Positions 41,696 through 60,519 of a stretch of 64,000 nt of DNA are shown here, one piece after another; position 1 is the first letter of the stretch, and each line of letters opens with the position of its first letter. Source of the DNA: Psychroserpens ponticola (GTDB lineage: Bacteria > Bacteroidota > Bacteroidia > Flavobacteriales > Flavobacteriaceae); assembly GCF_023556315.2 (NCBI RefSeq), contig NZ_CP116221.1:3176001-3240000 (forward strand), read 5' to 3'. Both the position numbers and the translations under genes were made by a program. The notes beneath the pieces are model-generated. The model saw only the letters and a program-made list of their open reading frames with translations. It ran no database searches and had not been told where the DNA came from.

Positions 41696-41700
41696 AGATT

Positions 41701-42570: not shown

Positions 42571-42584
42571 TATTTTTAAAACAA

Positions 42585-42657
42585 GGTCTCGACTGCGCTC
42601 GACCTGACACTAGCAAAATTACAATTTAGAGGTCTCCTCGAGCGCAGTCGAGAGGTC
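42585..42657 (+). repeat. REP-like inverted repeat pair
   Basis: CTCGACTGCGCTCGA (42588-42602) and its exact complement TCGAGCGCAGTCGAG (42638-42652) form a 15-bp inverted repeat with a 35-nt spacer, surrounded by GGTCT/AGGTCT. The GC-rich unit contrasts with its AT-rich surroundings and recurs at 46970-46991. Confidence 0.85.
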
Positions 42658-42675
42658 TTAAATAAAATTACAATT

Positions 42676-44109
42676 ATGAATTTAAGTATTTCAGAAGATA
42701 AAAAAGAAACGATTTTTGACAATTTAAAAACGGCAAATCAAACGTTCAATAAAATATATAGAGGAGACAGAGAAGATAGACAACCCATTCACACCGTTTA
42801 TGGTGGAGCAAATCTATTCAAATCTAATACAACCGACATTTTAGGAGGTATCGCTTTAAAATCATTGTTGCATTATGCTCCTAATTGTATTGAATTTGGT
42901 AAAGCTTTTAAATTAAAAGGAAGCAAAAAATTACCATCAAAAAACAAGAAACAATTAAAGCTCATAAAAAAGTTAGAAGGCTTCTCTAGTGAAGAATTAA
43001 AAAATCATCCAGCTGGATTTTCTTATAACATATATCAAAAAGTAATTGCAAAATTAAAAAGCGAAGGTGTTGAAGATTTTAGAATCGATTTTGAAGATGG
43101 CTTTGGTAATCGTTCTGACAAAGAAGAAGATGAGACTGCTGTTTTTGCAGCAAAACAAGTCGCTCTAGGAATGACTGACGGAACAGTTTCTCCTTTTATA
43201 GGCATTCGTATCAAACCCTTTACTGAAGAATTAAAACATCGTGGACAAAGAACACTTGATTTATTCTTAACAACATTACTGTCAGAAACCAATGGGAAAT
43301 TACCAAACAATTTTGTGGTAATGTTACCTAAAGTGACCATTCCTGAGCAAATTATTGCATTAGTATCCTTTTTTGAAGTGATTGAAGACAAATTCAATTT
43401 AGAATCTGGAACACTAAAAATGGAAATGATGGTCGAGACCACACAATCCATAATGGATCACAATGGAACAAATCCATTATTCAGATTTATAGCAGCAAGC
43501 AAAGGTCGCTGTATCGCAACTCATTTTGGAACTTACGATTATACTGCTTCAAACAATATTACAGCTTCATATCAAGAAATGGATCATGACGTGTGTGATT
43601 TTGCACATTACACAACAAAAGTGGCTTTAGCACACACCGGAATTTGGTTGTCTGATGGCGCTACTAATACCATGCCAATTGGACCACATCGTGGTGATTT
43701 AACTGAAGAGGAAGAGGAAGAAAACAGAAAAGTTGTTCATCGTGCTTGGTTAAAAGGTTATGAGCATATTCGTCATTCATTATACAAAGGTTTATATCAA
43801 GGTTGGGATTTAAATCCAGCACAATTACCAATGCGTTACACTGCAGTTTATGCCTTCTTTTTAGAAAGCTATGATGACGCTGTTCTACGTTTAAAAACCT
43901 TCGTAGAAAAAGCTGCTCAAGCGACATTAATTGGTGACACATTTGATGATGCTGCAACTGGACAAGGTCTTTTAAATTACTTTTTAAAAGCCTTAAACAG
44001 TGGAGCGATTACAATTGACGAAGTATTAGCTACAGGACTAACATTAGATGAAATTAGAACACGTTCGTTTGCTAAAATATTGAAAGACAGACGTGCTAAA
44101 TTGGAGTAA
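42676..44109 (+). CDS. DUF6986 family protein, CitE/HpcH-HpaI aldolase-like
   Basis: A 477-residue member of the phosphoenolpyruvate/pyruvate aldolase (CitE/malate synthase-like) superfamily. Seen: DFRIDFEDGFGNRSDKEED near residues 134-152, in which the acidic pair is typical of the metal and substrate site; MEMMVETTQSI near residues 251-261 (metal Glu); and FGTYDYTASNN near residues 282-292. I recall the DUF6986 label for this family. Its reaction is not established. Position at the end of the ureide operon, where ureidoglycolate is the product and no lyase is encoded, suggests a role with glyoxylate or ureidoglycolate (inference). Confidence 0.85.
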   Translation: MNLSISEDKKETIFDNLKTANQTFNKIYRGDREDRQPIHTVYGGANLFKSNTTDILGGIALKSLLHYAPNCIEFGKAFKLKGSKKLPSKNKKQLKLIKKLEGFSSEELKNHPAGFSYNIYQKVIAKLKSEGVEDFRIDFEDGFGNRSDKEEDETAVFAAKQVALGMTDGTVSPFIGIRIKPFTEELKHRGQRTLDLFLTTLLSETNGKLPNNFVVMLPKVTIPEQIIALVSFFEVIEDKFNLESGTLKMEMMVETTQSIMDHNGTNPLFRFIAASKGRCIATHFGTYDYTASNNITASYQEMDHDVCDFAHYTTKVALAHTGIWLSDGATNTMPIGPHRGDLTEEEEEENRKVVHRAWLKGYEHIRHSLYKGLYQGWDLNPAQLPMRYTAVYAFFLESYDDAVLRLKTFVEKAAQATLIGDTFDDAATGQGLLNYFLKALNSGAITIDEVLATGLTLDEIRTRSFAKILKDRRAKLE

Positions 44110-44130
44110 TAACTCTATTCTATAATGGAT

Positions 44131-44170
44131 TCCTCATCACACTTCCACTAAACAGATTGTGTGATGAGGA
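44131..44170. repeat. Strong hairpin between convergent genes
   Basis: TCCTCATCACAC (44131-44142) and GTGTGATGAGGA (44159-44170) form a perfect 12-bp stem with a 16-nt loop. It separates the purine operon from the convergent NTPase gene. No T-run follows on either strand, so it is not a typical intrinsic terminator; it may still stop or protect both transcripts. Confidence 0.7.
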
Positions 44171-44178
44171 ACAACAAA

Positions 44179-44661
44179 TCATTTCCATAATTTAAAATCT
44201 TCTTTTTTCAGAACCTTATATTTAGAAATAGTATAATGCTTCAAAATAGCATCCAACAAATAATCTCTAACCACCAAAATTAAATGTTGATTTTCATTCT
44301 GCATATATTTAGGAATTATAGCCTCAGTAGAAAGATGTAAACCCTCATTTTTCAATTCTAGCTTTCCTAATTCATCAATAATTAGGAATTTATGTTCAGT
44401 TTCTGAAAATTTTGAAAGTAAAAAATCATTTGCTTCAGTAAAAGCTGATTTCAAAAACTTAAAGTTTCCAATAATAGTTACCTTATTTTCAGATTCAACT
44501 TCAAGTTTAAATCCTTCATTAGATTTTACTTTCAGAAAAAAGCGCTTTCCATTTTCATCATCTGGACATAACAATCCGTCAACATTAGTTCTAGTATTAG
44601 ACCAATCTAGTAAAGCTGTAGTTTTTCCTGTTCTAATAGCTCCTGTTAGAATGTAAATCAT
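44179..44661 (-). CDS. Small P-loop nucleoside-triphosphatase (THEP1-like)
   Basis: A 160-residue P-loop protein with Walker A GAIRTGKTTAL near residues 7-17 and Walker B-like FLIIDELGKLEL near residues 92-103, as in the NTPase_1/THEP1 family. A pair or cluster of cysteines is not evident apart from one Cys near residue 37 (GLLCPDDENGKRFF). It overlaps the membrane-protein gene by 4 nt. Its role is unknown; the operon with XdhC suggests help for cofactor or substrate handling. Confidence 0.85.
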   Translation of the reverse strand: MIYILTGAIRTGKTTALLDWSNTRTNVDGLLCPDDENGKRFFLKVKSNEGFKLEVESENKVTIIGNFKFLKSAFTEANDFLLSKFSETEHKFLIIDELGKLELKNEGLHLSTEAIIPKYMQNENQHLILVVRDYLLDAILKHYTISKYKVLKKEDFKLWK

Positions 44662-45665
44662 TCCGAAGGCACTTTAAAATGAATACAATTAGAGATGCTA
44701 TTCGCCATAAAATGTTTGAAACGCGTATAGCCATTTAAGTGTTTTGTATCATTCCATGAAAACGAAATAATCTGCCTGAAATATGGAAATAAATCCATTG
44801 CATTTGAAATATCCTCTTGGTATTTCGACTTCTTTTTACTAAGATATTTCTGAACCATTTTCAATAAAAAAGGGCCAATAATTAAATACCAAAGCATTAA
44901 AATCAAGAAACTACGAAGCATGATATAAACACCTTCTTTCCAACCAAACAAATCACCTCCAAGAAATGTAAATGCCAAAACAATAATAGTAACTGTTATC
45001 AACCAAACCCAAATAACTTTGGTTTTAAATGGCTTTTTTGACACCATATTTTCCGAATCTACATCATTAGGCTCCAAATAAAAATCGACTTGCTTTTTGT
45101 TTGAAATAATCTTAATCATGCTTTTAATAAAAAAGCCTGCTAGAATTCCGCAAATTCCGTAAACTAAAAGATACGTCGTCACTAAAACAGACGTTGCTGA
45201 TGTTTCAGAAACAAAATCTAATTTCCTTTGTACGGAAGCTCCATAAATATTGATAGCATCCCAAAAACCAGTTCCATAAACTATTGTAAGTATTAATAGT
45301 TTCTGAAGCGCAGATTCTAAAAACGTCACCATTCCTAAAACCATTAATGCAGCGCCTTTCCATGAAAATTTAGAAAACAATAAAGCTCCAAAAAGTGCTT
45401 GAAAACTTACTGCAACATAAGCTCCAAATGGAGAATACGGACTCACAGCCATTTTTATAATTAAAACAATGAGCAGTGCTTTTAATATCGCCTGCCATTT
45501 GTTTTCAGCATAATATGTAATTAAACTAATGAGCAAAATGGAAATTCCACCAACAATAATTCCAGTAAAAGGTGTGCTAAATACATGTAAAAAACCACCA
45601 AGACCAGATTCGTTTAAAGCCCAAAGTGCAGTTAATTTATCAATGATGGATTTGTTATTTTTCAT
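44658..45665 (-). CDS. Polytopic membrane protein of unknown function
   Basis: A 335-residue inner-membrane protein. At least six hydrophobic helices are seen (about residues 33-52, 58-75, 83-100, 105-130, 157-182, 213-232 and 243-266), with the polar motif SPYSPFGAYVAVSFQALFG near residues 76-94, reminiscent of ECF-type substrate-binding components. The C-terminal ~70 residues are soluble (DLFPYFRQIISFSWNDTK). I cannot name a family. It is translationally linked on both sides (4-nt overlaps) to xdhC-like and NTPase genes, so it may transport something needed for the molybdoenzyme or for purines. Confidence 0.8.
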   Translation of the reverse strand: MKNNKSIIDKLTALWALNESGLGGFLHVFSTPFTGIIVGGISILLISLITYYAENKWQAILKALLIVLIIKMAVSPYSPFGAYVAVSFQALFGALLFSKFSWKGAALMVLGMVTFLESALQKLLILTIVYGTGFWDAINIYGASVQRKLDFVSETSATSVLVTTYLLVYGICGILAGFFIKSMIKIISNKKQVDFYLEPNDVDSENMVSKKPFKTKVIWVWLITVTIIVLAFTFLGGDLFGWKEGVYIMLRSFLILMLWYLIIGPFLLKMVQKYLSKKKSKYQEDISNAMDLFPYFRQIISFSWNDTKHLNGYTRFKHFMANSISNCIHFKVPSE

Positions 45666-46432
45666 TCTTTGTAATGCACTTCTAATAATTGCGCAACAAC
45701 ACTAATCGCAATTTCTTTTGGAGTATCTCCTCCAATTTGCAATCCGATTGGGCAAACTACGTTACTCATACCTTCCTCTAAATTCATTTCTCTAATGAGC
45801 ATATTATTAAATCGAACACGTTTGGTTTTACTTCCTATTAAGCCTAAATACTTAGTTTCATTTTGAAGCGCCATCGCTACAACATCAAAGTCGATAGAAT
45901 GATCATGAGTAAGTACCAAAACATAACAGTTCTTTCCCCATTTTACAACATCTCTAAACGATTTAAAGTCATCTATATTAACTTGACAACAATCAATGCT
46001 GTCATCTAATGTAACATCTTTAAACCAATCTTCACGAGAATCTATTAGATGAACCTTAAATGGTGTATCGACTAATATTTTGACAATTTCAACACCAATA
46101 TGTCCTGCTCCAAATAAAAATAATTCTGGTGATTGATTCATAGGTTCTATCATAAATTCTACTTTTCCGCCACAACATTGTTCAAACTCTGGACCTAAGG
46201 TATAACTAGATTCGATAATTCTGTTTTCATGAAGCGCAGTCATGGCTTCATCTGTAGCTTTATATTCTAATTTCCCACCACCTATTGTTCCATGAAGTTG
46301 TTTATCGTTTGTGATAATCATTCGTGAGCCTACAACACATGGTGTTGATCCCAAACATTTTGTAACAGTAACTAGAGCGACAGGTTGTTGCTTTTTTTTA
46401 AATTCCGATAATTGTTCTATCCAATTCTTCAT
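45662..46432 (-). CDS. xdhC: XdhC family molybdenum cofactor maturation protein
   Basis: XdhC proteins bind and help sulfurate Moco before insertion into xanthine dehydrogenase. The 256-residue protein has the N-terminal XdhC/CoxI domain (VALVTVTKCLGSTPCVVGSR near residues 18-37, then GTIGGGKLEYKA near residues 48-59, CCGG near residues 86-89) and a C-terminal Rossmann domain (LFLFGAGHIGVEIV near residues 103-116; VLVLTHDHSIDFDV near residues 160-173; GLIGSKTKR near residues 196-204). It heads a convergent three-gene operon facing xdhAB. Confidence 0.94.
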   Translation of the reverse strand: MKNWIEQLSEFKKKQQPVALVTVTKCLGSTPCVVGSRMIITNDKQLHGTIGGGKLEYKATDEAMTALHENRIIESSYTLGPEFEQCCGGKVEFMIEPMNQSPELFLFGAGHIGVEIVKILVDTPFKVHLIDSREDWFKDVTLDDSIDCCQVNIDDFKSFRDVVKWGKNCYVLVLTHDHSIDFDVVAMALQNETKYLGLIGSKTKRVRFNNMLIREMNLEEGMSNVVCPIGLQIGGDTPKEIAISVVAQLLEVHYKE

Positions 46433-46608: not shown

Positions 46609-46944
46609 ATGTCTAAACCATATTACGATTCTGCAGATTTACGCAAATTTGGAAACATCACTGAATGGAGTGAAGAACTAGGAAACAAATTCTTTGATTA
46701 TTACGGAAAGGTATTTGAAGAAGGCGCTTTAACTGCTCGCGAAAAATCACTAATTGCATTAGCTGTTTCTCATACTGAACAATGTCCATATTGTATTGAC
46801 GCTTACACTAAAGACACTTTACAACGTGGTGTAACTAAAGAAGAAATGATGGAAGCAATACATGTTGGCGCAGCAATAAAAAGTGGTGCAACTTTAGTGC
46901 ATGGCGTACAAATGATGAATAAAGTGAATAAATTAGATGGTTAA
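46609..46944 (+). CDS. Arsenosugar biosynthesis-associated peroxidase-like protein
   Basis: A 111-residue carboxymuconolactone decarboxylase/AhpD-fold protein with the redox motif EQCPYCIDAYTKD near residues 53-65 and a following GVTKEEMMEAIHVGAAIKS helix. This subgroup is regularly encoded next to the radical SAM ArsS, as here, and carries that label. It may manage thiol or arsenic redox state (inference). ATG 46609 (MSKPYYDSADL) is chosen; an upstream ATG at 46579 adds an unlikely Asn/Lys-rich decapeptide. Confidence 0.9.
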   Translation: MSKPYYDSADLRKFGNITEWSEELGNKFFDYYGKVFEEGALTAREKSLIALAVSHTEQCPYCIDAYTKDTLQRGVTKEEMMEAIHVGAAIKSGATLVHGVQMMNKVNKLDG

Positions 46945-46969
46945 ACAAAGTTATCAGGCCGAGAGACCT

Positions 46970-46991
46970 CTCGACTGCGCTTGAGGTGACA
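46970..46991 (+). repeat. REP-like element, single copy
   Basis: CTCGACTGCGCTTGAGGTGACA is a one-arm version of the repeat found at 42585-42657, with one change (T for C) and the same TGACA end. It lies between the peroxidase-like gene and arsS. Confidence 0.8.
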
Positions 46992-47020
46992 GAATAAAGA
47001 TTAAAACTCAATAAATTTTA

Positions 47021-48076
47021 ATGGCAACAAAATCCCTACAAAAATCAGGAAGTGATTTAGCTAACAGCAATAGACAAATTGAAATACTCTCAAATGGTAT
47101 TTTTAAAAGTGGTGAATTACCAACATTTAAAGCTAAAATTTCTGAGACCAATCAATTCCCTTTAAAAGCAAAGAAGCTTGAAATTCTACAAATCAATGTT
47201 GGTTATATGTGTAATCAGGTGTGTGATCATTGTCATGTAGATGCTGGTCCAGACCGAAAAGAGATTATGACTAGAGACACAATGAAACAATGTTTGGAAG
47301 TCATCAAAAATTCTGGTGCACATACCTTAGATTTAACAGGAGGAGCTCCAGAAATGAATCCAGATTTTAGATGGTTTGTTGAAGAAGCTGCGAAAGTTGG
47401 TATTAAAGATTTTATTGTAAGATCTAATTTAACCATTATTAGAGCCAACAAAAAGTATTACGATTTACCTGAATTCTTTAAAAAACATAATGTTCATGTG
47501 GTGAGTTCAATGCCACACTGGACTAGAGGTAAAACTGACAAACAAAGAGGTGATGGTGTTTTTGACAAATCCATTAAAGCCTTACAGGAATTAAATGCTG
47601 TTGGCTACGGAATGCCAGATAGTAATTTAAAATTAGATTTGGTTTATAATCCTTCAGGAGCATTTTTACCAGGTGACCAAATGTCTATGGAAAAAGATTT
47701 CAAAAAGGCATTACTTGAAGACTTCGGAATTCAATTTCATAATCTTTTTGCAATTACTAATCTACCAATTGCACGATTTTTAGATTACTTAATTGCTTCA
47801 GAAAACTATGAAGATTATATGTATCAATTAGTTGAAGCTTATAATCCTTCAGCAGTTGCAAATGTAATGTGCACAAATACCTTATCAATAAGTTGGAATG
47901 GCTATTTATACGATTGTGATTTCAACCAAATGTTAGAATTACCTGTAAATAGTAAAGCAAAGCATATTTCAGAATTTAATGAAGAACTATTAGAAGGACG
48001 CAATATCGTCATCTCACAACATTGTTATGGTTGTACTGCAGGAGCAGGAAGTAGTTGTCAAGGTGTAGTCGCATAA
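47021..48076 (+). CDS. arsS: Arsenosugar biosynthesis radical SAM protein ArsS
   Basis: Radical SAM enzyme that adds a 5'-deoxyadenosyl group to dimethylated arsenic on the way to arsenosugars. The 351-residue protein has the cluster motif MCNQVCDHCHVDAGPDR near residues 62-78 (CxxxCxxC), the GGxP-like LTGGAPEMNPDFRWF near residues 106-120, and a C-terminal Cys-rich ending QHCYGCTAGAGSSCQG near residues 332-347 for a second cluster. Some homologues are selenoproteins; here every codon is standard. It lies next to the peroxidase-like gene, rhodanese, glycosyltransferase, PNP and arsM. Confidence 0.95.
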   Translation: MATKSLQKSGSDLANSNRQIEILSNGIFKSGELPTFKAKISETNQFPLKAKKLEILQINVGYMCNQVCDHCHVDAGPDRKEIMTRDTMKQCLEVIKNSGAHTLDLTGGAPEMNPDFRWFVEEAAKVGIKDFIVRSNLTIIRANKKYYDLPEFFKKHNVHVVSSMPHWTRGKTDKQRGDGVFDKSIKALQELNAVGYGMPDSNLKLDLVYNPSGAFLPGDQMSMEKDFKKALLEDFGIQFHNLFAITNLPIARFLDYLIASENYEDYMYQLVEAYNPSAVANVMCTNTLSISWNGYLYDCDFNQMLELPVNSKAKHISEFNEELLEGRNIVISQHCYGCTAGAGSSCQGVVA

Positions 48077-48077
48077 A

Positions 48078-48572
48078 ATGAAAACACGTCTTTTATACAT
48101 ATTCATTCTGTATTCAACTCTTGGGTTTTCTCAAGATACGATTTCAGAATTACTCAAAAAACACAATTCTAAGGGTATTCCTTATATTTCAGTAGAAGAA
48201 TTAGCCATGCCTAAAACTGACGCTATTATTTTAGATTCAAGAGAACCTCAAGAATATGAAGTAAGTCATATTAAAGATGCTATATCTGTTGGATATGATA
48301 ATTTTAATATAGAAACTATTGAAAAACACATCCCAAAAAGAGATCAAGAAATCATAGTGTATTGTTCTTTAGGAATTCGTTCAGAAGTAATTGCTAACAA
48401 ATTGAAAAAAGCTGGATATACAAAAGTTAAAAACCTATATGGTGGAATTTTCGAATGGAAGAACAAGAATTTTTCAATTTACAACACTCAAGAAAAAGAA
48501 ACAGATAGCATTCATACCTTTTCAAAGGAATGGAGCAAATGGTTAAATAATGGTATAAAAATTCATGAATAA
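48078..48572 (+). CDS. Exported rhodanese-like protein
   Basis: A 164-residue single-domain rhodanese with a signal peptide (about residues 1-18, STLGFSQ). The domain spans about 38-140, with DSREPQEYEVSHIKDA near residues 53-68 and the catalytic loop VYCSLGIRSE near residues 96-105 (active Cys). The fold carries sulfur as a Cys-persulfide; in the arsenosugar operon it could assist arsenic-thiol chemistry, but no reaction is known. It starts 1 nt after arsS and overlaps the next gene by 8 nt. Confidence 0.92.
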   Translation: MKTRLLYIFILYSTLGFSQDTISELLKKHNSKGIPYISVEELAMPKTDAIILDSREPQEYEVSHIKDAISVGYDNFNIETIEKHIPKRDQEIIVYCSLGIRSEVIANKLKKAGYTKVKNLYGGIFEWKNKNFSIYNTQEKETDSIHTFSKEWSKWLNNGIKIHE

Positions 48573-49194
48573 AGAACTCGTTATTGTTTTTGTGAAAAAC
48601 ATAAAACTAGGAAAAGTAAAAACTAGACTTGCTAAAACCATTGGCAATCAAGCTGCATTTGAAGTTTATAAAGCACTCGTGAAAGTCACAGAACTTGCAA
48701 CAGAACATCTTGAAATTCCAATTCGTGTTTATTTTTCTGATGCTATTGTAGACACTAAATGGGAAAAGGCACATAAAGCAGTTCAAAAAGGAAAAGACTT
48801 AGGTGAACGCATGCAAAATGCATTCTTAAAAGGTTTTGAAGATGGCTATAATCGTATTGTTTTAATCGGATCTGATTTACCTGATATTAGTGCAACTCAT
48901 ATAAAAAACGGACTAGAAGCTTTAGAGCATTCTGAAGTCGTTTTTGGACCTGCAGAAGATGGTGGTTATTACCTTATTGGAATGTCTAAAATGAACACCA
49001 AAGTATTTGAAAATAAACCTTGGAGCCAAAGCCATTTATTAACTGAAACACTTTCAGAATTAAAACATAATAACACAACATTTTCTACCTTAGAGGTTTT
49101 AAATGACATTGATACTTTTGAGGATTTAGAAGCTTCAGATTTTTATAAAAACAGCATAGAATTACAATATAAAATCAAACAATTAAATGATTAA
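48565..49194 (+). CDS. TIGR04282 family arsenosugar biosynthesis glycosyltransferase
   Basis: A 209-residue GT-A-like (DUF2064) enzyme. Recognisable are VIVFVKNIKLGKVKTRLA near residues 5-22 with KTRLAKTIG, LGERMQNAF near residues 75-83, VLIGSDLPDIS near residues 95-105 and FGPAEDGGYYLIGM near residues 124-137. This family co-occurs with ArsS and ArsM and is thought to attach a sugar-derived or glycerol part during arsenosugar formation. It overlaps the rhodanese gene and the PNP gene by 8 nt each. Confidence 0.93.
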   Translation: MNKELVIVFVKNIKLGKVKTRLAKTIGNQAAFEVYKALVKVTELATEHLEIPIRVYFSDAIVDTKWEKAHKAVQKGKDLGERMQNAFLKGFEDGYNRIVLIGSDLPDISATHIKNGLEALEHSEVVFGPAEDGGYYLIGMSKMNTKVFENKPWSQSHLLTETLSELKHNNTTFSTLEVLNDIDTFEDLEASDFYKNSIELQYKIKQLND

Positions 49195-49999
49195 ATTCAT
49201 CACAGAAACCACAGAATACTTGGTTGATAAAGGTTTTGAAAATCCAGAAATAGGAATTATTTTAGGAACTGGCTTAGGTCAGCTCACAAACGAAATTGAA
49301 GTCATTCGCGAAGTGAGTTATAATCACATTCCAAATTTCCCAACGGCTACTGTTGAGTTTCATAAAGGAAAATTCATTTATGGACATTTATCCGGAAAGA
49401 AAGTAGTCGTCATGCAAGGTCGCTTTCATGTTTATGAAGGCTATTCTTTGCAAGATGTAACTTTTCCTGTTCGCATTATGGAAAAATTAGGAATTAAAAC
49501 ATTACTAGTTTCAAATGCAGCTGGAGCCATCAACCTTAACTTTAAAAAAGGAGACTTAATGTTGATTGATGATCATATCAATTTACAAGGAAGTTCGCCT
49601 TTAGCATTTAAAGGTGTTGAAGAATTAGGCGAACGTTTCACAGATATGAGTGCACCTTACAATCTAGAAATCAATGCAAAGTTTAAAAGCATTGCAAAAA
49701 CTCATAACATTAAATTACACGAAGGGGTTTATGCCAGCGTCGTTGGACCTCAACTAGAAACAAGAGCTGAATATAGAATGCTTAAAATTATAGGCGCAGA
49801 TGCTGTTGGTATGAGTACAGTTCCTGAAATTATTGTCGCGAACCATTTAAATATGAAAGTGGCTGCTATTTCTGTATTAACAGACGAATGTGATCCAGAC
49901 AATTTAAAACCTGTAGATATTTCAGAAATAATAGCAACAGCTGGAAAAGCTGAACCTAATATGATTACCCTTTTTAAAGAATTAATAAAAGAATTATAA
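49187..49999 (+). CDS. Purine-nucleoside phosphorylase
   Basis: A 270-residue trimeric-type purine nucleoside phosphorylase. Phosphate-binding GTGLGQLTNEIE near residues 28-39, GRFHVYEGY near residues 83-91, VSNAAGAINLNFKKGDLMLI near residues 109-128 and the GMSTVPEIIVANH motif near residues 213-225 are all present. Its place inside the arsenosugar operon suggests that it removes adenine from the deoxyadenosyl-arsenical made by ArsS, besides normal salvage (inference). It starts within the TIGR04282 gene. Confidence 0.95.
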   Translation: MIKFITETTEYLVDKGFENPEIGIILGTGLGQLTNEIEVIREVSYNHIPNFPTATVEFHKGKFIYGHLSGKKVVVMQGRFHVYEGYSLQDVTFPVRIMEKLGIKTLLVSNAAGAINLNFKKGDLMLIDDHINLQGSSPLAFKGVEELGERFTDMSAPYNLEINAKFKSIAKTHNIKLHEGVYASVVGPQLETRAEYRMLKIIGADAVGMSTVPEIIVANHLNMKVAAISVLTDECDPDNLKPVDISEIIATAGKAEPNMITLFKELIKEL

Positions 50000-50002
50000 A
50001 CT

Positions 50003-50971
50003 ATGAGTTACTTAAATGCAACTAACGATTTATATAAAGAAGCCGCATTAACACCAGATGTTGGTTTATGTTGTACTACGAATCCTATTTGGGAATTACC
50101 AGGATTAAAAATCCCGAGAATCATGCAAGAAATGAATTATGGTTGCGGAAGCACTGTTCATGCTCGTGATTTAACTAATAATCCAAAAATGCTTTACGTT
50201 GGTGTTGGAGGCGGAATGGAATTATTACAGTTTTCATATTTCAATCGTCAAAAAGCTGGTGTTATTGGTGTTGATGTTGTTGACGAAATGTTAGAAGCAT
50301 CTCGTAAAAATTTCATTGAAGCTGAAGCACAAAACGATTGGTTTAAATCGGAATTTGTAGATCTAAAAAAAGGCGACGCAATGAATCTTCCTGTTGAAGA
50401 TAATAGTATTGATGTGGCTGCTCAAAATTGCTTGTTTAATATTTTTAAGGCAGAAGATTTAAAGAAAGCCATTGAAGAAATGTATCGTGTTTTAAAACCT
50501 CATGGACGCTTAGTCATGAGCGATCCCACTTGTGAGCAACCAATGAATGACGAACTTAGAAATGATGACAGATTAAGAGCTTTATGTTTAAGCGGAAGCT
50601 TACCAATTGCAGACTATGTAAAAGCTTTAACTGATGCTGGTTTTGGAACTATTGAAATTAGAGCAAGAAAACCGTATCGTATTTTAGACCCAAAACAGTA
50701 TCCAACTGATCAATTAATTTATATTGAATCTATTGAAGTTGCTGCGATTAAAGATCCAATGCCAAGTGATGGCCCTTGTGTTTTCACTGGAAAAGCGGCA
50801 ATCTATTATGGTGAATCTGATTATTTTGACGACAAAGTTGGACATATTTTACTTAAAAATCAACCCTTAGCTATTTGTGACAAAACAGCTAGAGCATTGC
50901 AAGCATTAGGAAGAGACGATATCTATTTTAGTGAATCTACTTTTCATTATGATGGTGGAGGTTGTTGTTAG
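50003..50971 (+). CDS. arsM: Arsenosugar biosynthesis arsenite methyltransferase ArsM
   Basis: SAM-dependent arsenite methyltransferase. The 322-residue protein has the Cys pair in DVGLCCTTNPIW near residues 19-30, GCGSTVHAR near residues 47-55, the SAM-binding YVGVGGGMELLQFS near residues 65-78 and Cys residues in NCLFNIF, SDPTCEQP and CLSGSLP expected for As(III) binding; the end is GGGCC. The reaction gives mono- and dimethylarsenicals for ArsS. It closes the five-gene overlapping operon and is followed by a terminator. Confidence 0.95.
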   Translation: MSYLNATNDLYKEAALTPDVGLCCTTNPIWELPGLKIPRIMQEMNYGCGSTVHARDLTNNPKMLYVGVGGGMELLQFSYFNRQKAGVIGVDVVDEMLEASRKNFIEAEAQNDWFKSEFVDLKKGDAMNLPVEDNSIDVAAQNCLFNIFKAEDLKKAIEEMYRVLKPHGRLVMSDPTCEQPMNDELRNDDRLRALCLSGSLPIADYVKALTDAGFGTIEIRARKPYRILDPKQYPTDQLIYIESIEVAAIKDPMPSDGPCVFTGKAAIYYGESDYFDDKVGHILLKNQPLAICDKTARALQALGRDDIYFSESTFHYDGGGCC

Positions 50972-50996
50972 ACGATACTTGTTATTTATGTTACAT

Positions 50997-51032
50997 AAAA
51001 AAGGGAGCATCGTATATGATACTCCCTTTTTT
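50997..51032. terminator. Bidirectional intrinsic terminator
   Basis: AAAAAAGGGAG and CTCCCTTTTTT frame an almost perfect stem (one C/A mismatch) with a short loop. It ends the arsenosugar operon on the + strand and can end the DUF4097 gene on the - strand. Confidence 0.9.
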
Positions 51033-51056
51033 GTTTCAATTAAAATTGAATTCAAA

Positions 51057-51752
51057 TCAACTTTTCCTGATATAAATATTTCCTGAAATGGTCTCCATCT
51101 CTAAAGAAAGTGTGCCTCCATTAATTTGTTTTGAAACTCTATTGTGTGATCCATTGTATGACTTGGCAGACGTGTTTTTTTCAAATTCTATATCTGAGTA
51201 AATAGTTCCCGTCAATGATTTCGCATTAAGTTCAGCTTTTCTAACCGTAACATCTAATGCTCCACTAATGGTTTTTAGTCTAAGTTCTCCATCATATTTT
51301 TTGATGATTACATCTCCAGAAATTAAATCGGTAACCAAATCTCCTTGAAAAGCATCCATAAAGACACTTCCAGAAATGCTTTTAATTTTTAAGTTGATAT
51401 TTTTAGGCACTGTAACTACATAGTTAATTTCAGTAGTGAGGTTACAATTATTTCTGCTTTTATCTTTCCATTGATTTTTAAAATAAGCTCCAAAATCTGA
51501 ATATAATTTTAATTGTCCTGAAGCGTTATCTGTTTTTATGCTGAAAAACTCATTACCTTCTCCATCATCAATATTAACTGAGGCTTTCACTTTTACCTCA
51601 TTAGTATTTCCGTGCTCTACTCTTATATCTTGAGCAAATTTAAAATCGAGAAATACATCTTGATTTTTTGATAGACTTTTATTGATTTCAACATTTCGTT
51701 GTGCATGAAGTGTCGTTACACTTAATAATGCAATTAGGATGAGATATTTCAT
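51057..51752 (-). CDS. Exported DUF4097 beta-strand repeat protein
   Basis: A 231-residue protein with a signal peptide (about residues 1-17, VTTLHAQ) followed by a right-handed parallel beta solenoid of the DUF4097 kind (repeat pattern ISGSVFMDAFQGDLVTDLIS, then KTISGALDVTVRKAELNAKSL). The likely location is the periplasm or cell surface. It is the last gene of the sigma factor operon, so it probably responds to envelope stress. No enzymatic motif is visible. Confidence 0.88.
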   Translation of the reverse strand: MKYLILIALLSVTTLHAQRNVEINKSLSKNQDVFLDFKFAQDIRVEHGNTNEVKVKASVNIDDGEGNEFFSIKTDNASGQLKLYSDFGAYFKNQWKDKSRNNCNLTTEINYVVTVPKNINLKIKSISGSVFMDAFQGDLVTDLISGDVIIKKYDGELRLKTISGALDVTVRKAELNAKSLTGTIYSDIEFEKNTSAKSYNGSHNRVSKQINGGTLSLEMETISGNIYIRKS

Positions 51753-51772
51753 TTGATTGTGTTTTTGATTGA

Positions 51773-52609
51773 TTATTGTTTTCTTAGATATACGTTTCCA
51801 GTAGATGAGCGCAATACAATTTTAACGCCTCCATTATTTAGTTTGCTTTCAATTTTTCGAGTAGCTCCTACCACTTTCATATCATCTTCAGATGGTCTCT
51901 GCAAATCAAAATCGGTATATATCGTTCCCATATTGGAACGTAATTCTAAATCGGCTTTTGTATTTACTGGAAGTGATACATCTACTGCACCTGTTGAGCT
52001 ACTCAAAGTAATTGGTGACGACTGGCTAACACTAGAAAAATTAACATCAATAGTTCCAGTACTTGAATGCGCTGTGATTGGACCTGTAACATCTTTAAGG
52101 ATGATTCTACCAACATTTGTATTCACTTCAATTTCTGAAGAAAACCCTCTTAAAACCGCACTCCCAAGATTGCCACAATCTAAGTGAATATCCATGGTTT
52201 TCGGCAAAACTATTTGCAGTCCTTTACGTTGCATCCATGATTTCAAATCTTTAATGCGTAACACAGTACCTTCTTGTTCTATAGACATTCCAAAACCTGT
52301 ATTGTCTACGCCTCCAGAGTACACTGCTTTTAGACCTTTAGAACGATCATCCTTATTATTTTCCTCGCAATCGTGACATTCTTCATGATGTTCATGGTCA
52401 CAATTATCATGGTTGTGATCGTCGTTATCATACACATATTTTGTGAACCTTAATTCGTTTGTGGTTCCTGTGATTATCTTAACATGTGTACCTGTTTCAA
52501 TTTTCACTTTTGTAATTCCGATTAAACTCTTGATATAGTCTTCTTGAGCATTGGAAAACATAAAGCAGAATACTGCTATAAAATTTATTATAATTCCTGT
52601 TCGTTTCAT
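51773..52609 (-). CDS. Exported DUF4097-like protein with His/Cys-rich insert
   Basis: From ATG 52609 (MKRTGIIINFIAVFCFMFSNAQ, a clear signal peptide) the product has 278 residues. A hydrophilic metal-ligand-rich stretch near residues 64-86 (DDHNHDNCDHEHHEECHDC) is inserted in an otherwise DUF4097-like beta-solenoid (STGTIDVNFSSVSQSSPITL, STGAVDVSLP). A longer frame from 52660 is rejected because it overlaps the anti-sigma stop and lacks a signal peptide at its start. The insert could bind Zn, Cu or Ni (inference). Confidence 0.85.
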   Translation of the reverse strand: MKRTGIIINFIAVFCFMFSNAQEDYIKSLIGITKVKIETGTHVKIITGTTNELRFTKYVYDNDDHNHDNCDHEHHEECHDCEENNKDDRSKGLKAVYSGGVDNTGFGMSIEQEGTVLRIKDLKSWMQRKGLQIVLPKTMDIHLDCGNLGSAVLRGFSSEIEVNTNVGRIILKDVTGPITAHSSTGTIDVNFSSVSQSSPITLSSSTGAVDVSLPVNTKADLELRSNMGTIYTDFDLQRPSEDDMKVVGATRKIESKLNNGGVKIVLRSSTGNVYLRKQ

Positions 52610-52637
52610 TTTACTGATTTTTTTTAATTGATTTTTA

Positions 52638-53429
52638 TTAAATAATTTGCGAAATACCATCGTTTACCTGGTCTTTTACAAAATTCGGTGTGTCCTCATG
52701 CTCTAATAATTGTTGCATAGGAGCAATCGCGCGTTTCTCCTGGATTTTTACCAAAAATTGAATAATTGCAATTTGCAAACTTGGATCTTTCTGGGCAGTT
52801 AGTGCTTTAATAAACGCTTCTTTCACAATAGTTGATTTTGGAAATTCTGATAATGCTTCTGCTGCAGCAAGTCGCACATTCATATTTCCGTCATATTGCA
52901 TACGTCCTATTAAAGCTTCTAATATTTTAACATCTGGTTTCACAAAATCTTCTGTAAAACTAACGGCTTGAATTCGCTTACTTGGTGATTGGTTTTCTAT
53001 CATTGCCAACATCATATCTTCTCTTAACTCAACAGTTTCTTGTTGCAATGCTGAAATTTCATTATTAGCAATTTGTTTAGAATTGTGGCTTCCTAAAAAA
53101 TAACCTCCAAACATAAATATAATTGAAGCTGCAATTTGAAATGCCTGTTTCCAAGGGAATTCTTTTTTCTGCTTCGGAAGCTCTACAATTCGGTCATCAA
53201 GTAATTGTTTTTCTTCCTCTAAGAGTTTATAAAATCCTGTTCTTAAATTATCGCTAGGTGTTTCTTCTTCTACATTTTTAAATGCTGAAAAAAGCGCCTT
53301 TGTCTCTTCGTAAATAGATTTGCAATTATCACATGAAGCAATATGGTTTGCGATCTGTTGAGATTTTTCCGCAGACAATTGTTCATCAATGTAATCTACG
53401 ATATGTTGTTCTAAATTTTTACAATCCAT
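52638..53429 (-). CDS. Anti-sigma factor with zinc-finger and HEAT-repeat domains
   Basis: A 263-residue membrane protein. The N-terminal zf-HC2 anti-sigma motif is seen as HIASCDNCKSIY near residues 28-39 (H-x3-C-x2-C). A single membrane helix lies near residues 91-108 (AFQIAASIIFMFGGYFLG), and the periplasmic part has HEAT-like repeats (about 150-260; MQYDGNMNVRLAAAEALSEF). It is encoded 2 nt after the sigma factor and is expected to hold it at the membrane until a periplasmic signal is sensed. Confidence 0.9.
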   Translation of the reverse strand: MDCKNLEQHIVDYIDEQLSAEKSQQIANHIASCDNCKSIYEETKALFSAFKNVEEETPSDNLRTGFYKLLEEEKQLLDDRIVELPKQKKEFPWKQAFQIAASIIFMFGGYFLGSHNSKQIANNEISALQQETVELREDMMLAMIENQSPSKRIQAVSFTEDFVKPDVKILEALIGRMQYDGNMNVRLAAAEALSEFPKSTIVKEAFIKALTAQKDPSLQIAIIQFLVKIQEKRAIAPMQQLLEHEDTPNFVKDQVNDGISQII

Positions 53430-53431
53430 GA

Positions 53432-53995
53432 TTATATGGTTTCTAAATAAACGGTTTTTAATTTTTTTATAATACGATGTACTTTCACTTTAACTGCACC
53501 TTCACTACTACCCATTATCTCGGCGATTTTATCATATTTCATGCCTTGAAATCGATTTAAAACGATTAATTCTTTCTCCTCTTTATTCAATTTATTTAAG
53601 GCATTATGCAGATGAGCAACATCATCATTTCTTTCAATTTTATTATCTGTTTTTTTGCTCGCAACAAATTCGAGATCTTCGGTATTTGAGGTTTTTTTAG
53701 ATTTTTGATACTGGTCTGAAAACACATTTCTAGCAATTTTGAAAATCCATGACACAAATTGTCCACCTTTATAAGATGTTCTGTAACGCATAACTTTATA
53801 AAAAACAGTTTGAGTCATATCTTCACAAATAGCTTTATCTCTTATCATCTGAAAATAGAAATTATACAACCGCTTGTTATAGCGTTCAAAAATATGAGCC
53901 ATAGCATCTAAATTACCTCGAGCTACATCGAGCATTAGTTCTTCGTCGGTTAGTTTTTTCAATTCTCTTTGATGGTTGTTTGTTATGAAGACCAT
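53432..53995 (-). CDS. ECF-type RNA polymerase sigma factor
   Basis: A 187-residue sigma-70 family ECF factor. Region 2 is seen near residues 35-95 (RYNKRLYNFYFQMIRDKAIC, DMTQTVFYKVMRY, ISWIFKIARN), and region 4 near residues 130-180 (LNKEEKELIVLNRFQGMKYD, SEGAVKVKVHRI). It is the first gene of the operon with its anti-sigma factor and two DUF4097 proteins, the pattern of an envelope-stress response. The start (53995) may be 5-13 residues too long but no family signal decides this. Confidence 0.93.
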   Translation of the reverse strand: MVFITNNHQRELKKLTDEELMLDVARGNLDAMAHIFERYNKRLYNFYFQMIRDKAICEDMTQTVFYKVMRYRTSYKGGQFVSWIFKIARNVFSDQYQKSKKTSNTEDLEFVASKKTDNKIERNDDVAHLHNALNKLNKEEKELIVLNRFQGMKYDKIAEIMGSSEGAVKVKVHRIIKKLKTVYLETI

Positions 53996-54058
53996 TAAAT
54001 TACAAAAAGGTTACATGAGCCTGACAATTTTTTTTTAAAACATGTATCTTTAAGGGCT

Positions 54059-54943
54059 ATGGAAAAGTATCTTGACATTATAAAAAACTCTTATTCTAAT
54101 TATTGGAATTACCTTAAAAACGAGGTGTTATTTCAAAATAATTGGGACAACTATTTTTATGGCTTAATTGCTATCTCACTAATCGTTTGGCTGCTTGAAA
54201 TTGCGTTTCCTTGGCGAAAAAATCAAGCTTTATTTAGAAAGGACTTTTGGTTAGATGTCTTTTATATGTTTTTCAATTTTTTTCTTCTGAATTTAATTGT
54301 ACTCATTGCATTATCAAATGCAGCTGCAACATTTTTTAACGACATCTTAGGACTTATAGGTTTCTCGATTTCTAATTTTCAGTTATTTGATGTTGATAAT
54401 TTGCCTAGATGGCTTGGACTATTCGTTTTCTTTATGATCAGTGATTTTGTGCAATGGAATACACATCGATTATTGCATCGTTTTGAATGGCTTTGGAACT
54501 TTCACAAAGTACACCACAGTGTAAAAGAAATGGGATTTGCGGCGCATTTACGCTATCATTGGATGGAACCAGTGGTTTACAAATCACTACTCTATATTCC
54601 TATTGCTATTATTGGAGGATTTGACGCTCAAGATGTTGCCATTGTATATTTCTTTGCGATTGCAATTGGCCATCTTAACCATGCAAATTTGGGTTGGGAT
54701 TACGGAATTTTAAAATACATCTTCAATAATCCAAAGATGCATATTTGGCATCACGCAAAAGAACTACCAAAGCATGTTAGGTTTGGAGTAAATTACGGAC
54801 TAACCTTAAGTATTTGGGATTACATTTTTAAAACAGATTATGTTCCGCATAACGGAAGAGACATAGAACTTGGTTTTGAAGGTGACGAACACTTCCCTAA
54901 AGATTTTATTAGTCAGGAGTTATATCCATTAAAGAAAAATTAG
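54059..54943 (+). CDS. Sterol desaturase/fatty acid hydroxylase family membrane protein
   Basis: A 294-residue di-iron membrane oxygenase-type protein. Histidine boxes HRLLHR near residues 141-146, HKVHHS near residues 154-159 and HIWHHA near residues 230-235 match the FA_hydroxylase superfamily, with about four membrane helices before and around them. The substrate may be a lipid, sterol or carotenoid. It lies between the ECF operon and a DUF547 gene; the location within the arsenosugar locus suggests, but does not show, a lipid role there. It is divergent from the sigma factor. Confidence 0.92.
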   Translation: MEKYLDIIKNSYSNYWNYLKNEVLFQNNWDNYFYGLIAISLIVWLLEIAFPWRKNQALFRKDFWLDVFYMFFNFFLLNLIVLIALSNAAATFFNDILGLIGFSISNFQLFDVDNLPRWLGLFVFFMISDFVQWNTHRLLHRFEWLWNFHKVHHSVKEMGFAAHLRYHWMEPVVYKSLLYIPIAIIGGFDAQDVAIVYFFAIAIGHLNHANLGWDYGILKYIFNNPKMHIWHHAKELPKHVRFGVNYGLTLSIWDYIFKTDYVPHNGRDIELGFEGDEHFPKDFISQELYPLKKN

Positions 54944-55834
54944 ATGCACATTAAACCTATTTCAATTTTAGCATTAGTTTTATTAACCCTCTCTTGCGGA
55001 AGTTCTAAACAAATTGCTAGCACTACTAAAACTGAAAACACTATTCAGAAAGAAGATCAAAAATCAGATATAGACGTTGTACAAGAAGTTGTAGAAACTG
55101 TAATTATTGAAACACCTTCCGAAATTGAAGTGAGAGAAATTGAAACCATTCAAGAAGTTGAAGTTGAACATAAAATAACTGAAACAGAAACATTTAATCA
55201 TGACCTATGGAACAGTTTGCTTCAGAAACACGTTTCAGACCAAGGCAATGTCAACTATAAAGGTTTTAAAGCTGATAAAACTGAATTCAATTCTTACTTA
55301 AAATCACTTTCCGAAACACCTCCTCAAGATTCATGGAGCAAAGATGAAACATTAGCCTATTGGATGAATGTTTACAATGCTTTTACTATCAAATTAATTT
55401 TAGACAACTATCCTATAAATAGTATTAAAGATATCGATGGACCATGGAATCATCGTTTTATTAAAATAGGAGATAAATGGTATACACTTAATGATGTAGA
55501 GCATAAAATTATACGTAAAATGGATGAACCACGTATCCATTTTGCATTAGTTTGTGCCGCAGTTTCTTGTCCGAAATTATACAATAAAGCATTCACTGCA
55601 AAAAACCTAGAAGCCGATTTTGTTTTGTTAACTAAAGGATTTTTAAGTGATTCATCTAAAAATGAAATTTTTGAAAATGAAATCAAATTGTCGAAAATAT
55701 TCAAATGGTATGGTGGTGATTTCAAATCAAACGGAAAGGATTTAATCGACTTTTTAAATGAATACTCAGACGTTACTATTTCAGACAAAGCAAAAAAAAG
55801 CTACAAAGATTATAACTGGAATTTGAATGAATAA
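54944..55834 (+). CDS. DUF547 domain lipoprotein with Glu/Val-rich linker
   Basis: A 296-residue lipoprotein (lipobox LLTLSC, Cys 18). Residues about 35-80 are a Glu/Val/Ile-rich spacer, and the DUF547 domain covers about 85-290 with YWMNVYNAFTIKLILDNYPI near residues 142-161, LVCAAVSCPKLYN near residues 200-212 and LSKIFKWYGGDFK near residues 247-259. The conserved Cys in VSCPKL is invariant in the family, but the catalytic role is unknown. It directly follows the desaturase gene and overlaps the next by 8 nt. A shorter relative is encoded at 59809-60519. Confidence 0.88.
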   Translation: MHIKPISILALVLLTLSCGSSKQIASTTKTENTIQKEDQKSDIDVVQEVVETVIIETPSEIEVREIETIQEVEVEHKITETETFNHDLWNSLLQKHVSDQGNVNYKGFKADKTEFNSYLKSLSETPPQDSWSKDETLAYWMNVYNAFTIKLILDNYPINSIKDIDGPWNHRFIKIGDKWYTLNDVEHKIIRKMDEPRIHFALVCAAVSCPKLYNKAFTAKNLEADFVLLTKGFLSDSSKNEIFENEIKLSKIFKWYGGDFKSNGKDLIDFLNEYSDVTISDKAKKSYKDYNWNLNE

Positions 55835-56531
55835 GATTTCTATTGTTATTCCTGTTTTAAATGAAGAAAAACACATTGGTAAACTGCTTGTTCATTTAAA
55901 CGAAAACTCATCAAAGTCAAATATTAGTGACATCATTATAGTCGATGGCGGAAGCGAAGACAACACCTGCATGACAATTAAATACATGCAAACCATTTAC
56001 ACAAACATTCAGCTTTTAAATTCTGAAAAAGGAAGAGCCAAGCAAATGAATCTTGGAGCAAAACAAGCTTCGGGTAACATTCTTTATTTCTTACATGCCG
56101 ATTCTTTTCCGCCTCAACATTTTGATGAACTTATCATTTCCGAAGTAAAAAAAGGCAATAAAGCAGGTTGTTTCAGAATGCAATTTGACAGTAATCATTG
56201 GTGGTTAAGATTAGCGAGTTGGTTAACTCAGTTTTCATGGCGAGCATGCAGAGGTGGTGATCAAAGTCAGTTTATTAGCAGAGAACTTTTTAATGATATT
56301 AGAGGCTATAATGAAAACTATATCATTTATGAAGACAATATTTTAATTAACGAGTTATACACTCGAAAAGAATTTGTGGTTATAAATAAAAAGATTAGTA
56401 CTTCAGCAAGACTCTACAAAAAACATGGCATTTGGAAACTGCAATATCACTTTTGGACCATCTATATCAAAAAATGGTTTGGGGCTTCAGCAGACGAATT
56501 ATTTACTTACTATAAGAAATATATAAATTAA
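55827..56531 (+). CDS. TIGR04283 family arsenosugar biosynthesis glycosyltransferase
   Basis: A 234-residue GT2-type enzyme. It starts ISIVIPVLNEEKHIGKLL near residues 4-21, followed by IIIVDGGSEDNT near residues 36-47, KGRAKQMNLGAKQASG near residues 69-84 and LHADSFPPQH near residues 89-98 (DXD-like HADS). The TIGR04283 family belongs to arsenosugar loci, as does the TIGR04282 enzyme in the operon at 46.6-51 kb. It overlaps the DUF547 gene by 8 nt, so the DUF547 protein and the desaturase-like protein may belong to the same pathway. Confidence 0.92.
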   Translation: MNKISIVIPVLNEEKHIGKLLVHLNENSSKSNISDIIIVDGGSEDNTCMTIKYMQTIYTNIQLLNSEKGRAKQMNLGAKQASGNILYFLHADSFPPQHFDELIISEVKKGNKAGCFRMQFDSNHWWLRLASWLTQFSWRACRGGDQSQFISRELFNDIRGYNENYIIYEDNILINELYTRKEFVVINKKISTSARLYKKHGIWKLQYHFWTIYIKKWFGASADELFTYYKKYIN

Positions 56532-59808: not shown

Positions 59809-60519
59809 TTATTGTTTGTTTAGATTCCAGTTATATGAATAATATGACACTATAGCGTTTGAATCAATTTTATTTGCTCTAAATCTGTTGATATAATCAA
59901 TTTCATTTCCGCTTTTCACGAAGTCTTCTTTATACCATTTAAAAATCTCAGAAAGTTGAAGCTCATTATTAGAATATTTTATGAAACTTGCATTATTAAG
60001 TGCAATTTCAGCCTGTTCTTGTAATTGCGACTCTAAACTATTTGGAAAATAAGCCGAATCAATTAAAGGAGGACAACCAAGAGCTCCACAAACAAGCACA
60101 AAATGAAAACGTGCATCATTAAAATGAGCTCGCAACTTTACATTTTCGATATCATTGAGTGTTATTAATTCTCCAGCAATTTGATAGGTTATTTTATCAA
60201 AAAAACCAGATGAGTCTAGTGGAGATTTTAATGGATAATTATCAATAATTCCTTTTATTACTGAAATATTATACGCATTAATATAAAAAGCCTGATAGGT
60301 TTTAGTGTCATTTTTTGATACTGAAATATTTTCAGCGAAACTGACTAATTGATTTAACAACTCTGGATTTGCAACAATTTTTGAGTAGGCAACCTTTCCA
60401 TTTGAAACATTTGATTTAAAAAAATCGTCTGCTAATTTAAAAAAAACTGAAGTATTTTGTGAAAAACTACTGCTTATTCCAAATAACATTGCAAACACAA
60501 AGAGTTTGTACCTTTTCAT
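59809..60519 (-). CDS. Exported DUF547 domain protein
   Basis: A 236-residue protein with a signal peptide (about residues 1-20, SSSFSQN). The DUF547 domain covers the rest: YQAFYINAYNISVIKGIIDN near residues 75-94, LVCGALGCPPLIDSAY near residues 142-157 and LSEIFKWYKEDFVKSG near residues 195-210. The conserved Cys is present (GCPPL). It is a clear paralogue of the protein at 54944-55834, which is longer because of its spacer. Function unknown. It is divergent from the FAD oxidoreductase. Confidence 0.9.
   Translation of the reverse strand: MKRYKLFVFAMLFGISSSFSQNTSVFFKLADDFFKSNVSNGKVAYSKIVANPELLNQLVSFAENISVSKNDTKTYQAFYINAYNISVIKGIIDNYPLKSPLDSSGFFDKITYQIAGELITLNDIENVKLRAHFNDARFHFVLVCGALGCPPLIDSAYFPNSLESQLQEQAEIALNNASFIKYSNNELQLSEIFKWYKEDFVKSGNEIDYINRFRANKIDSNAIVSYYSYNWNLNKQ

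Follow-up and report, generated by a model that had tools for sequence, protein, structure and literature searches.

Organization of the locus

We analysed a 64,000-nucleotide stretch of the Psychroserpens ponticola genome (contig NZ_CP116221.1, positions 3,176,001 to 3,240,000, referred to here as the window), which is part of a 4.03-Mb single-contig genome of the Flavobacteriaceae. Between positions 46,609 and 56,531 the window carries an arsenosugar-type locus built around the radical SAM protein ArsS and the methyltransferase-type protein ArsM, and our main subjects are two further members of this locus, a membrane protein of the fatty-acid-hydroxylase superfamily (FAH) and a DUF547 protein. 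The genes are the following.

46609..46944, + strand: PEROX, AhpD/CMD-type peroxidase-like protein (TIGR04169, 190.6 bits, cut-off 120)
47021..48076, + strand: ArsS, radical SAM protein (TIGR04167, 443.2 bits, cut-off 300)
48078..48572, + strand: rhodanese-domain protein (NF045521 rhoda_near_glyco, 206.9 bits, cut-off 145)
48565..49194, + strand: TIGR04282 CofC/DUF2064-like transferase (196 bits, cut-off 134; also PF09837)
49187..49999, + strand: PNP, purine nucleoside phosphorylase (PRK08202, 348.1 bits, cut-off 218)
50003..50971, + strand: ArsM, arsenosugar-type (NF038099 AsSugarArsM, 571.6 bits, cut-off 400)
51057..53995, - strand: separating module of two DUF4097-type proteins, a zf-HC2 anti-sigma-like protein and a sigma factor of the extracytoplasmic function (ECF) type
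54059..54943, + strand: FAH, fatty-acid-hydroxylase-superfamily membrane protein (PF04116, 92.4 bits, cut-off 31)
54944..55834, + strand: DUF547 protein (PF04784, 90.4 bits, cut-off 27)
55827..56531, + strand: TIGR04283 family-2 glycosyltransferase (233.7 bits, cut-off 182)

The order is thus PEROX-ArsS-rhodanese-TIGR04282-PNP-ArsM, then a 3-kb module on the opposite strand and finally FAH-DUF547-TIGR04283. This is in agreement with a preliminary description of the window as a two-part locus with ArsS, ArsM, the peroxidase-like protein, TIGR04282 and TIGR04283: all five exceed their family cut-offs and were placed at the correct coordinates, although that gene list omitted PNP and the rhodanese-domain protein. 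The DUF547 start directly adjoins the FAH stop, and the 8-nt overlap of the DUF547 and TIGR04283 genes that had been noted is indeed present. Judged by gene spacing alone, these three genes are probably co-transcribed. A scan for sigma-70-type promoters, with other promoter types outside its scope, found 51 sites compared with 48.1 (standard deviation 6.1) in shuffled sequences, and a terminator scan found six compared with 4.5 (standard deviation 2.8). A promoter-like site matching nine of 12 positions ahead of FAH (54021-54050) was discounted because the total number of sites equals that in the shuffles.

The TIGR04283 gene is the sole match over cut-off in the genome. The nearest named relatives of the window ArsS are from Winogradskyella species (91-94% identity; records of the genome itself may have been left out). 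Since the gene order recurs across genera, the arrangement is unlikely to be due to chance.

Recurrence of FAH and DUF547 in arsenosugar loci

The distribution of both genes was determined in 199 Flavobacteriaceae genomes from 198 genera, of which 148 have ArsS over cut-off and 51 do not. Matches to FAH are bimodal around 61% identity, and relatives with at least this identity are referred to as FAH-A. Among the matches listed there are 64 FAH-A places and 86 FAH places below 61%. Of the former, 61 of 64 have ArsS within 15 kb, compared with one of 86 for the latter, and a chance linkage was rejected. The three exceptions are 21 kb from ArsS (G085), 172 kb from it (G054) and on another contig (G112). 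A DUF547 gene is found within 500 bp of 58 of the 64 FAH-A places and of none of the 86 others. Counted by genome, FAH-A is present in 64/148 genomes with ArsS and 0/51 without (p = 9e-11), and DUF547 in 129/148 and 8/51, respectively, among the matches listed (p = 1e-20); neither p value is corrected for kinship. In the genome tables, at E ≤ 1e-20, DUF547 is present in 136/148 ArsS genomes and 10/51 others. The co-occurrence of the two genes with ArsS, which the preliminary description had suggested as a check, is borne out, and FAH and DUF547 are supported as recurrent members of the arsenosugar locus.

Gene order was compared for 60 FAH-A genes in 61 loci, window included. FAH-A is followed by DUF547 in 55 cases, 51 of which continue with TIGR04283, and the FAH/DUF547 junction overlaps by 4 nt in 18 of the 55. 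When all 58 same-strand DUF547 genes of these loci are considered, 53 precede TIGR04283, with the 8-nt overlap of the window in 19 of the 53 junctions (12/33 in named loci). Upstream, FAH-A directly follows ArsM in 28 cases and PNP in 12; the remainder have another same-strand gene (13) or an opposite-strand gene (seven, two of them a sigma factor). As FAH directly follows ArsM or PNP in 40 of the 60, the split of the locus is a local feature. It would have arisen when the sigma/anti-sigma module was inserted downstream of ArsM and ahead of FAH, or when the genes around this module were rearranged. A similar sigma/anti-sigma/DUF4097 module is present in five further loci (L066, L163, L186, L267 and L310) among those examined (141 including the window, and 80). 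Of the two DUF4097-type proteins in the module of the window, one reaches the Pfam DUF4097 cut-off (25.3 against 22.9) and the second is without a Pfam match.

DUF547 is also found in the locus where FAH is lacking. Among the matches listed, 105 of the 148 ArsS genomes have a DUF547 gene at most 15 kb from ArsS, 57 with FAH nearby and 48 without. All 11 fetched loci with DUF547 only hold TIGR04282, PNP, DUF547 and TIGR04283, and ten of them ArsM. In the Polaribacter loci L182, L184 and L200 and in L117 it stands directly before PEROX-ArsS, and since it is present there despite the changed gene order, DUF547 travels with the cluster. Outside the Flavobacteriaceae DUF547 is less closely tied to ArsS: in about 266 such genomes of a phylum sample of 296, ArsS is found in 107, DUF547 (E ≤ 1e-30) in 56 and both in 35 (p = 2e-4).

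Additional DUF547 copies were encountered. The window contains a second gene at 59809-60519 (- strand; PF04784, 81 bits; 36% identical to the operon DUF547) near a GH113 gene, with copies 33-39% identical in 15 other fetched loci, and in Aquimarina algiphila four tandem copies precede TIGR04283 (L192:16470-20435).

The transferase genes also occur without ArsS

The genes other than PEROX, ArsS and ArsM, namely rhodanese, TIGR04282, PNP, DUF547, TIGR04283 and, where present, FAH, are referred to here as block 2. In the genome tables TIGR04282 is over cut-off in 148/148 ArsS genomes and 10/51 others, and TIGR04283 in 130/148 and 8/51. Among the ArsS-less Flavobacteriaceae, G001, G018, G104 and G184 have TIGR04282-PNP-DUF547-TIGR04283, while G129 and G037 have TIGR04282-PNP-TIGR04283 with no DUF547 between. 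In G158, PNP is on a different contig from TIGR04282-DUF547-TIGR04283. DUF547-TIGR04283 in G183 and TIGR04282-DUF547 in G052 occur in genomes with no PNP match, and the place of TIGR04282 in G183 is not among the matches listed. ArsM, which was sought throughout as the NF038099 type only, has no match at E ≤ 1e-30 in any of these nine genomes.

FAH can likewise be part of such a block. It is found at 67% identity or more in seven genomes of the phylum sample. Two of them, G332 and G344, lack both an ArsS match at E ≤ 1e-60 and an ArsM that reaches its cut-off. In both, BLAST to the window proteins gives rhodanese-TIGR04282-FAH-DUF547-TIGR04283 in a row, with the rhodanese and DUF547 of G344 also supported by Pfam. 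The preliminary description would have been contradicted if FAH and DUF547 were common in genomes without ArsS and ArsM. They are not common there, yet they do occur without the arsenic genes.

Sequence and structural features

Ten FAH histidines (His136, His140, His149, His152, His153, His205, His208, His228, His231 and His232) are invariant in 50 aligned rows. They form the boxes HX3H, HX2HH and HX2HH, which we take to be the PF04116 motif and which the window FAH matches. As all ten are kept in every row, the enzyme looks intact. In the phylogenetic tree 30 of 31 operon FAH rows form one clade (support 97/88). A strict single-clade assignment was dropped, as the FAH of L119, on a long branch, groups with the sister clade. 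Members of this sister clade are 56-60% identical and have the same invariant histidines. Their neighbours include a TauE/SafE exporter and an MBL-rhodanese protein (L294:3025-6910; MBL-rhodanese also at L291:4727-7027), a context that apparently reflects sulfur or persulfide handling. No ArsS, DUF547 or TIGR04283 label is present in the approximately 10-kb sister-clade stretches, which were checked with Pfam in two of the nine loci, L291 and L294. FAH has no sequence match in the PDB at E ≤ 1, and its structure model was judged to be poor (predicted local distance difference test, pLDDT, 57.8) and was left out of the fold search. The ornithine lipid hydroxylase OlsE (NF052566) belongs to the same superfamily and matches residues 115-293 of FAH with 82.5 bits, which is far under the cut-off of 475, and FAH is thus not assigned to the OlsE family.

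In DUF547 residues Asn142, Tyr144, Asn145, Glu186, Ser208 and Pro210 are invariant and Cys209 is nearly so (45 rows). The N-terminus of the window protein carries the sequence TLSC, and a lenient lipobox pattern fits 48 of 102 DUF547 proteins from the loci, with uncurated starts. Its structure model has a pLDDT of 84.9. Foldseek against the PDB returned 129 matches at E ≤ 10 but none at E ≤ 0.001, and phmmer gave four matches only (E 0.79-0.91).

Among the nearest solved relatives of TIGR04283 are ArnC-type transferases and dolichol-phosphate mannose synthase, with E values of about 1e-6 over the N-terminal part only. The similarity, although weak, is thus to enzymes that charge polyprenyl phosphates with a sugar. 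Asp233 of PNP is invariant in all 131 operon PNPs that have a residue at this position (134 rows, three gapped). It presumably corresponds to Asn243 of human PNP, where an aspartate would favour adenine nucleosides. Because three of the five aligned solved PNPs also have aspartate here, Asp233 was not counted as evidence for adenine specificity. The PNP gene is the sole PNP match in the genome at E ≤ 1e-30, and the operon that holds it lies downstream of purine-catabolism-type genes (41665-46432), among them an OHCU decarboxylase/HIUase fusion and XdhC.

Proposed function and alternative explanations

On balance we favour, by a modest degree, a Flavobacteriaceae arsenosugar operon of two functional blocks, the first making a nucleoside and the second carrying its sugar onward, with FAH as an optional part. 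Block 1 (PEROX, ArsS and ArsM) would yield a 5'-deoxy-5'-dimethylarsinoyl nucleoside. The biosynthesis of oxo-arsenosugars involves adenosylation of arsenic by a radical SAM enzyme (Cheng et al. 2021, as cited in PMC12159101). From the published chemistry of their families, to which the proteins here are linked by membership, ArsM would methylate the arsenic and ArsS would add the deoxyadenosyl group. In block 2, which would carry the nucleoside-type sugar onward, PNP may remove the base to leave a sugar-1-phosphate, TIGR04282 may activate or transfer this sugar-1-phosphate and TIGR04283 may place the sugar on an acceptor. The two weakest assignments concern DUF547, which is apparently exported in many members and might act last, outside the inner membrane, and FAH, which as a membrane oxygenase of the di-iron type might optionally oxidize the lipid acceptor or the product on the membrane side. 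DUF547 is best read as part of a sugar-transfer block that is separable and takes part in making arsenosugars, and FAH is probably an optional add-on that tailors the membrane-side product.

Several observations weigh against this two-block operon. Forty listed TIGR04283 places near DUF547, TIGR04282 and ArsS have no FAH-A within 3 kb, and FAH is therefore not required. No DUF547 is listed within 15 kb of ArsS in 43 of the 148 ArsS genomes, and outside the Flavobacteriaceae it is found at this distance in only eight of 107 (E ≤ 1e-30). Of the 60 FAH-A loci, 17 yielded no ArsM, and two of these 17 also stop short of ArsS. The operon FAH of L119 falls outside the operon clade. Block 2 in ArsS-less genomes either has an arsenic-free role or is left over from gene losses, and as such a remnant it could fail to represent a working unit. 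Finally, the substrates, the products and the joint expression proposed here are predictions from gene families and gene order.

The preliminary description had gone further and proposed that FAH and DUF547 may be involved in producing or handling arsenolipids or membrane-bound arsenosugars, which we read as a role dedicated to arsenolipids of the arsenosugar phospholipid type. The tight linkage of both genes to ArsS in the Flavobacteriaceae, the absence of FAH-A from all ArsS-less genomes of the family sample and the position of FAH as a membrane enzyme and of DUF547 as an apparently exported protein next to a family-2 glycosyltransferase are consistent with this, and as new members of the locus the two genes stand. 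Their arsenolipid role is weakened because DUF547 lies with TIGR04282, PNP and TIGR04283 in four genomes without ArsS or ArsM, because FAH-DUF547, followed by TIGR04283, occurs in G332 and G344, which lack the arsenic genes as well, and because the nearest sister clade of FAH adjoins sulfur-type genes, which hints against a dedicated arsenic role of FAH. Given also the 40 ArsS-linked clusters without FAH, we regard it as unlikely. Block 2 might instead have originated as an arsenic-independent nucleoside-sugar or glycoconjugate pathway that was joined by ArsS and ArsM, with FAH and DUF547 serving a product free of arsenic, and the arsenosugar no more than incidentally. Six ArsS-less genomes, 99-100% complete and with no arsenosugar ArsM, keep TIGR04282, PNP and TIGR04283 together, four with DUF547 between and two without it, and in 16 listed places of ArsS genomes DUF547, TIGR04282 and TIGR04283 have no ArsS within 20 kb on the same contig, although contig breaks may contribute. 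Nevertheless, block 2 is uncommon without ArsS and very common with it, as would be the case if it mainly serves arsenic metabolism and the exceptions reflect gene loss, and the absence of ArsM refers to the NF038099 type only. We consider this origin possible but doubtful. It is very improbable that FAH and DUF547 are passengers, retained through conserved synteny and functionally unconnected with arsenosugars. The flank is partly syntenic too (a metallophosphoesterase-like gene, GH113 and, further downstream, an oxidoreductase), but its nearer genes are on the opposite strand: the phosphoesterase-like gene is on the ArsS strand in none of 30 cases and GH113 in two of 47. In contrast, FAH, DUF547 and TIGR04283 abut or overlap, and DUF547 accompanies the cluster where the genes are arranged differently.

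Relation to known systems

This kind of locus is already known to annotation. The new points are that FAH and DUF547 are members, how the two are distributed and that the transferase block is separable. All five models of the NCBIfam arsenosugar biosynthesis locus (TIGR04167, NF038099, TIGR04169, TIGR04282 and TIGR04283) score over cut-off here; the window differs in the addition of FAH and DUF547 and in the split by the sigma/anti-sigma module. NCBIfam offers no DUF547 family at E ≤ 0.001, and its sole match to FAH at this threshold is OlsE, below the cut-off. The original TIGRFAM notes reportedly already suggest a phosphorylase and two transferases in this pathway. The oxo-arsenosugar pathway (PMC12159101) has radical SAM adenosylation of arsenic in common with the locus. 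In the literature consulted no genes are assigned to the steps after ArsS, for which PNP, the two transferases, FAH and DUF547 are the candidates in the window. In the open-access literature we found no paper that connects arsenosugars with DUF547 or with a fatty acid hydroxylase, nothing on TIGR04283 and nothing on an arsenosugar together with a glycosyltransferase and a nucleoside phosphorylase.

More speculatively, and with some doubt on our part, rhodanese-TIGR04282-PNP-DUF547-TIGR04283 may be a portable pathway from 5'-modified nucleosides to membrane-side glycoconjugates, which would give arsenosugars together with ArsS and ArsM and an arsenic-free product without them, FAH adding a lipid-oxidation step. 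If so, the name 'arsenosugar glycosyltransferase' is too narrow and DUF547 gains a pathway. The present results tie DUF547, a domain of unknown function, to a pathway, and PNP, TIGR04282, TIGR04283, DUF547 and FAH make up an ordered, testable gene list for the arsenosugar or arsenolipid steps after ArsS. Natural operons with and without FAH allow a comparison, and the ArsS-less genomes can show whether the transferases act on non-arsenic substrates.

Associated transport genes

Some arsenosugar loci have transport cassettes inside or beside them. One of these (L068:7422-14980) comprises a TIGR04282-like protein (108.9 bits, cut-off 134), SusC, a SusD-like protein, a protein that weakly matches the SSF symporter family and a metallophosphoesterase, and its SusC/SusD clusters recur in 15 Flavobacteriaceae and two other loci. 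Such a cassette may import an organoarsenical or nucleoside-like compound. A PHO4-family transporter (L081:10782-11894; 225.1 bits, with the L081 protein alone scanned) clusters with genes of ten other loci, several of which sit between ArsM and FAH or DUF547.

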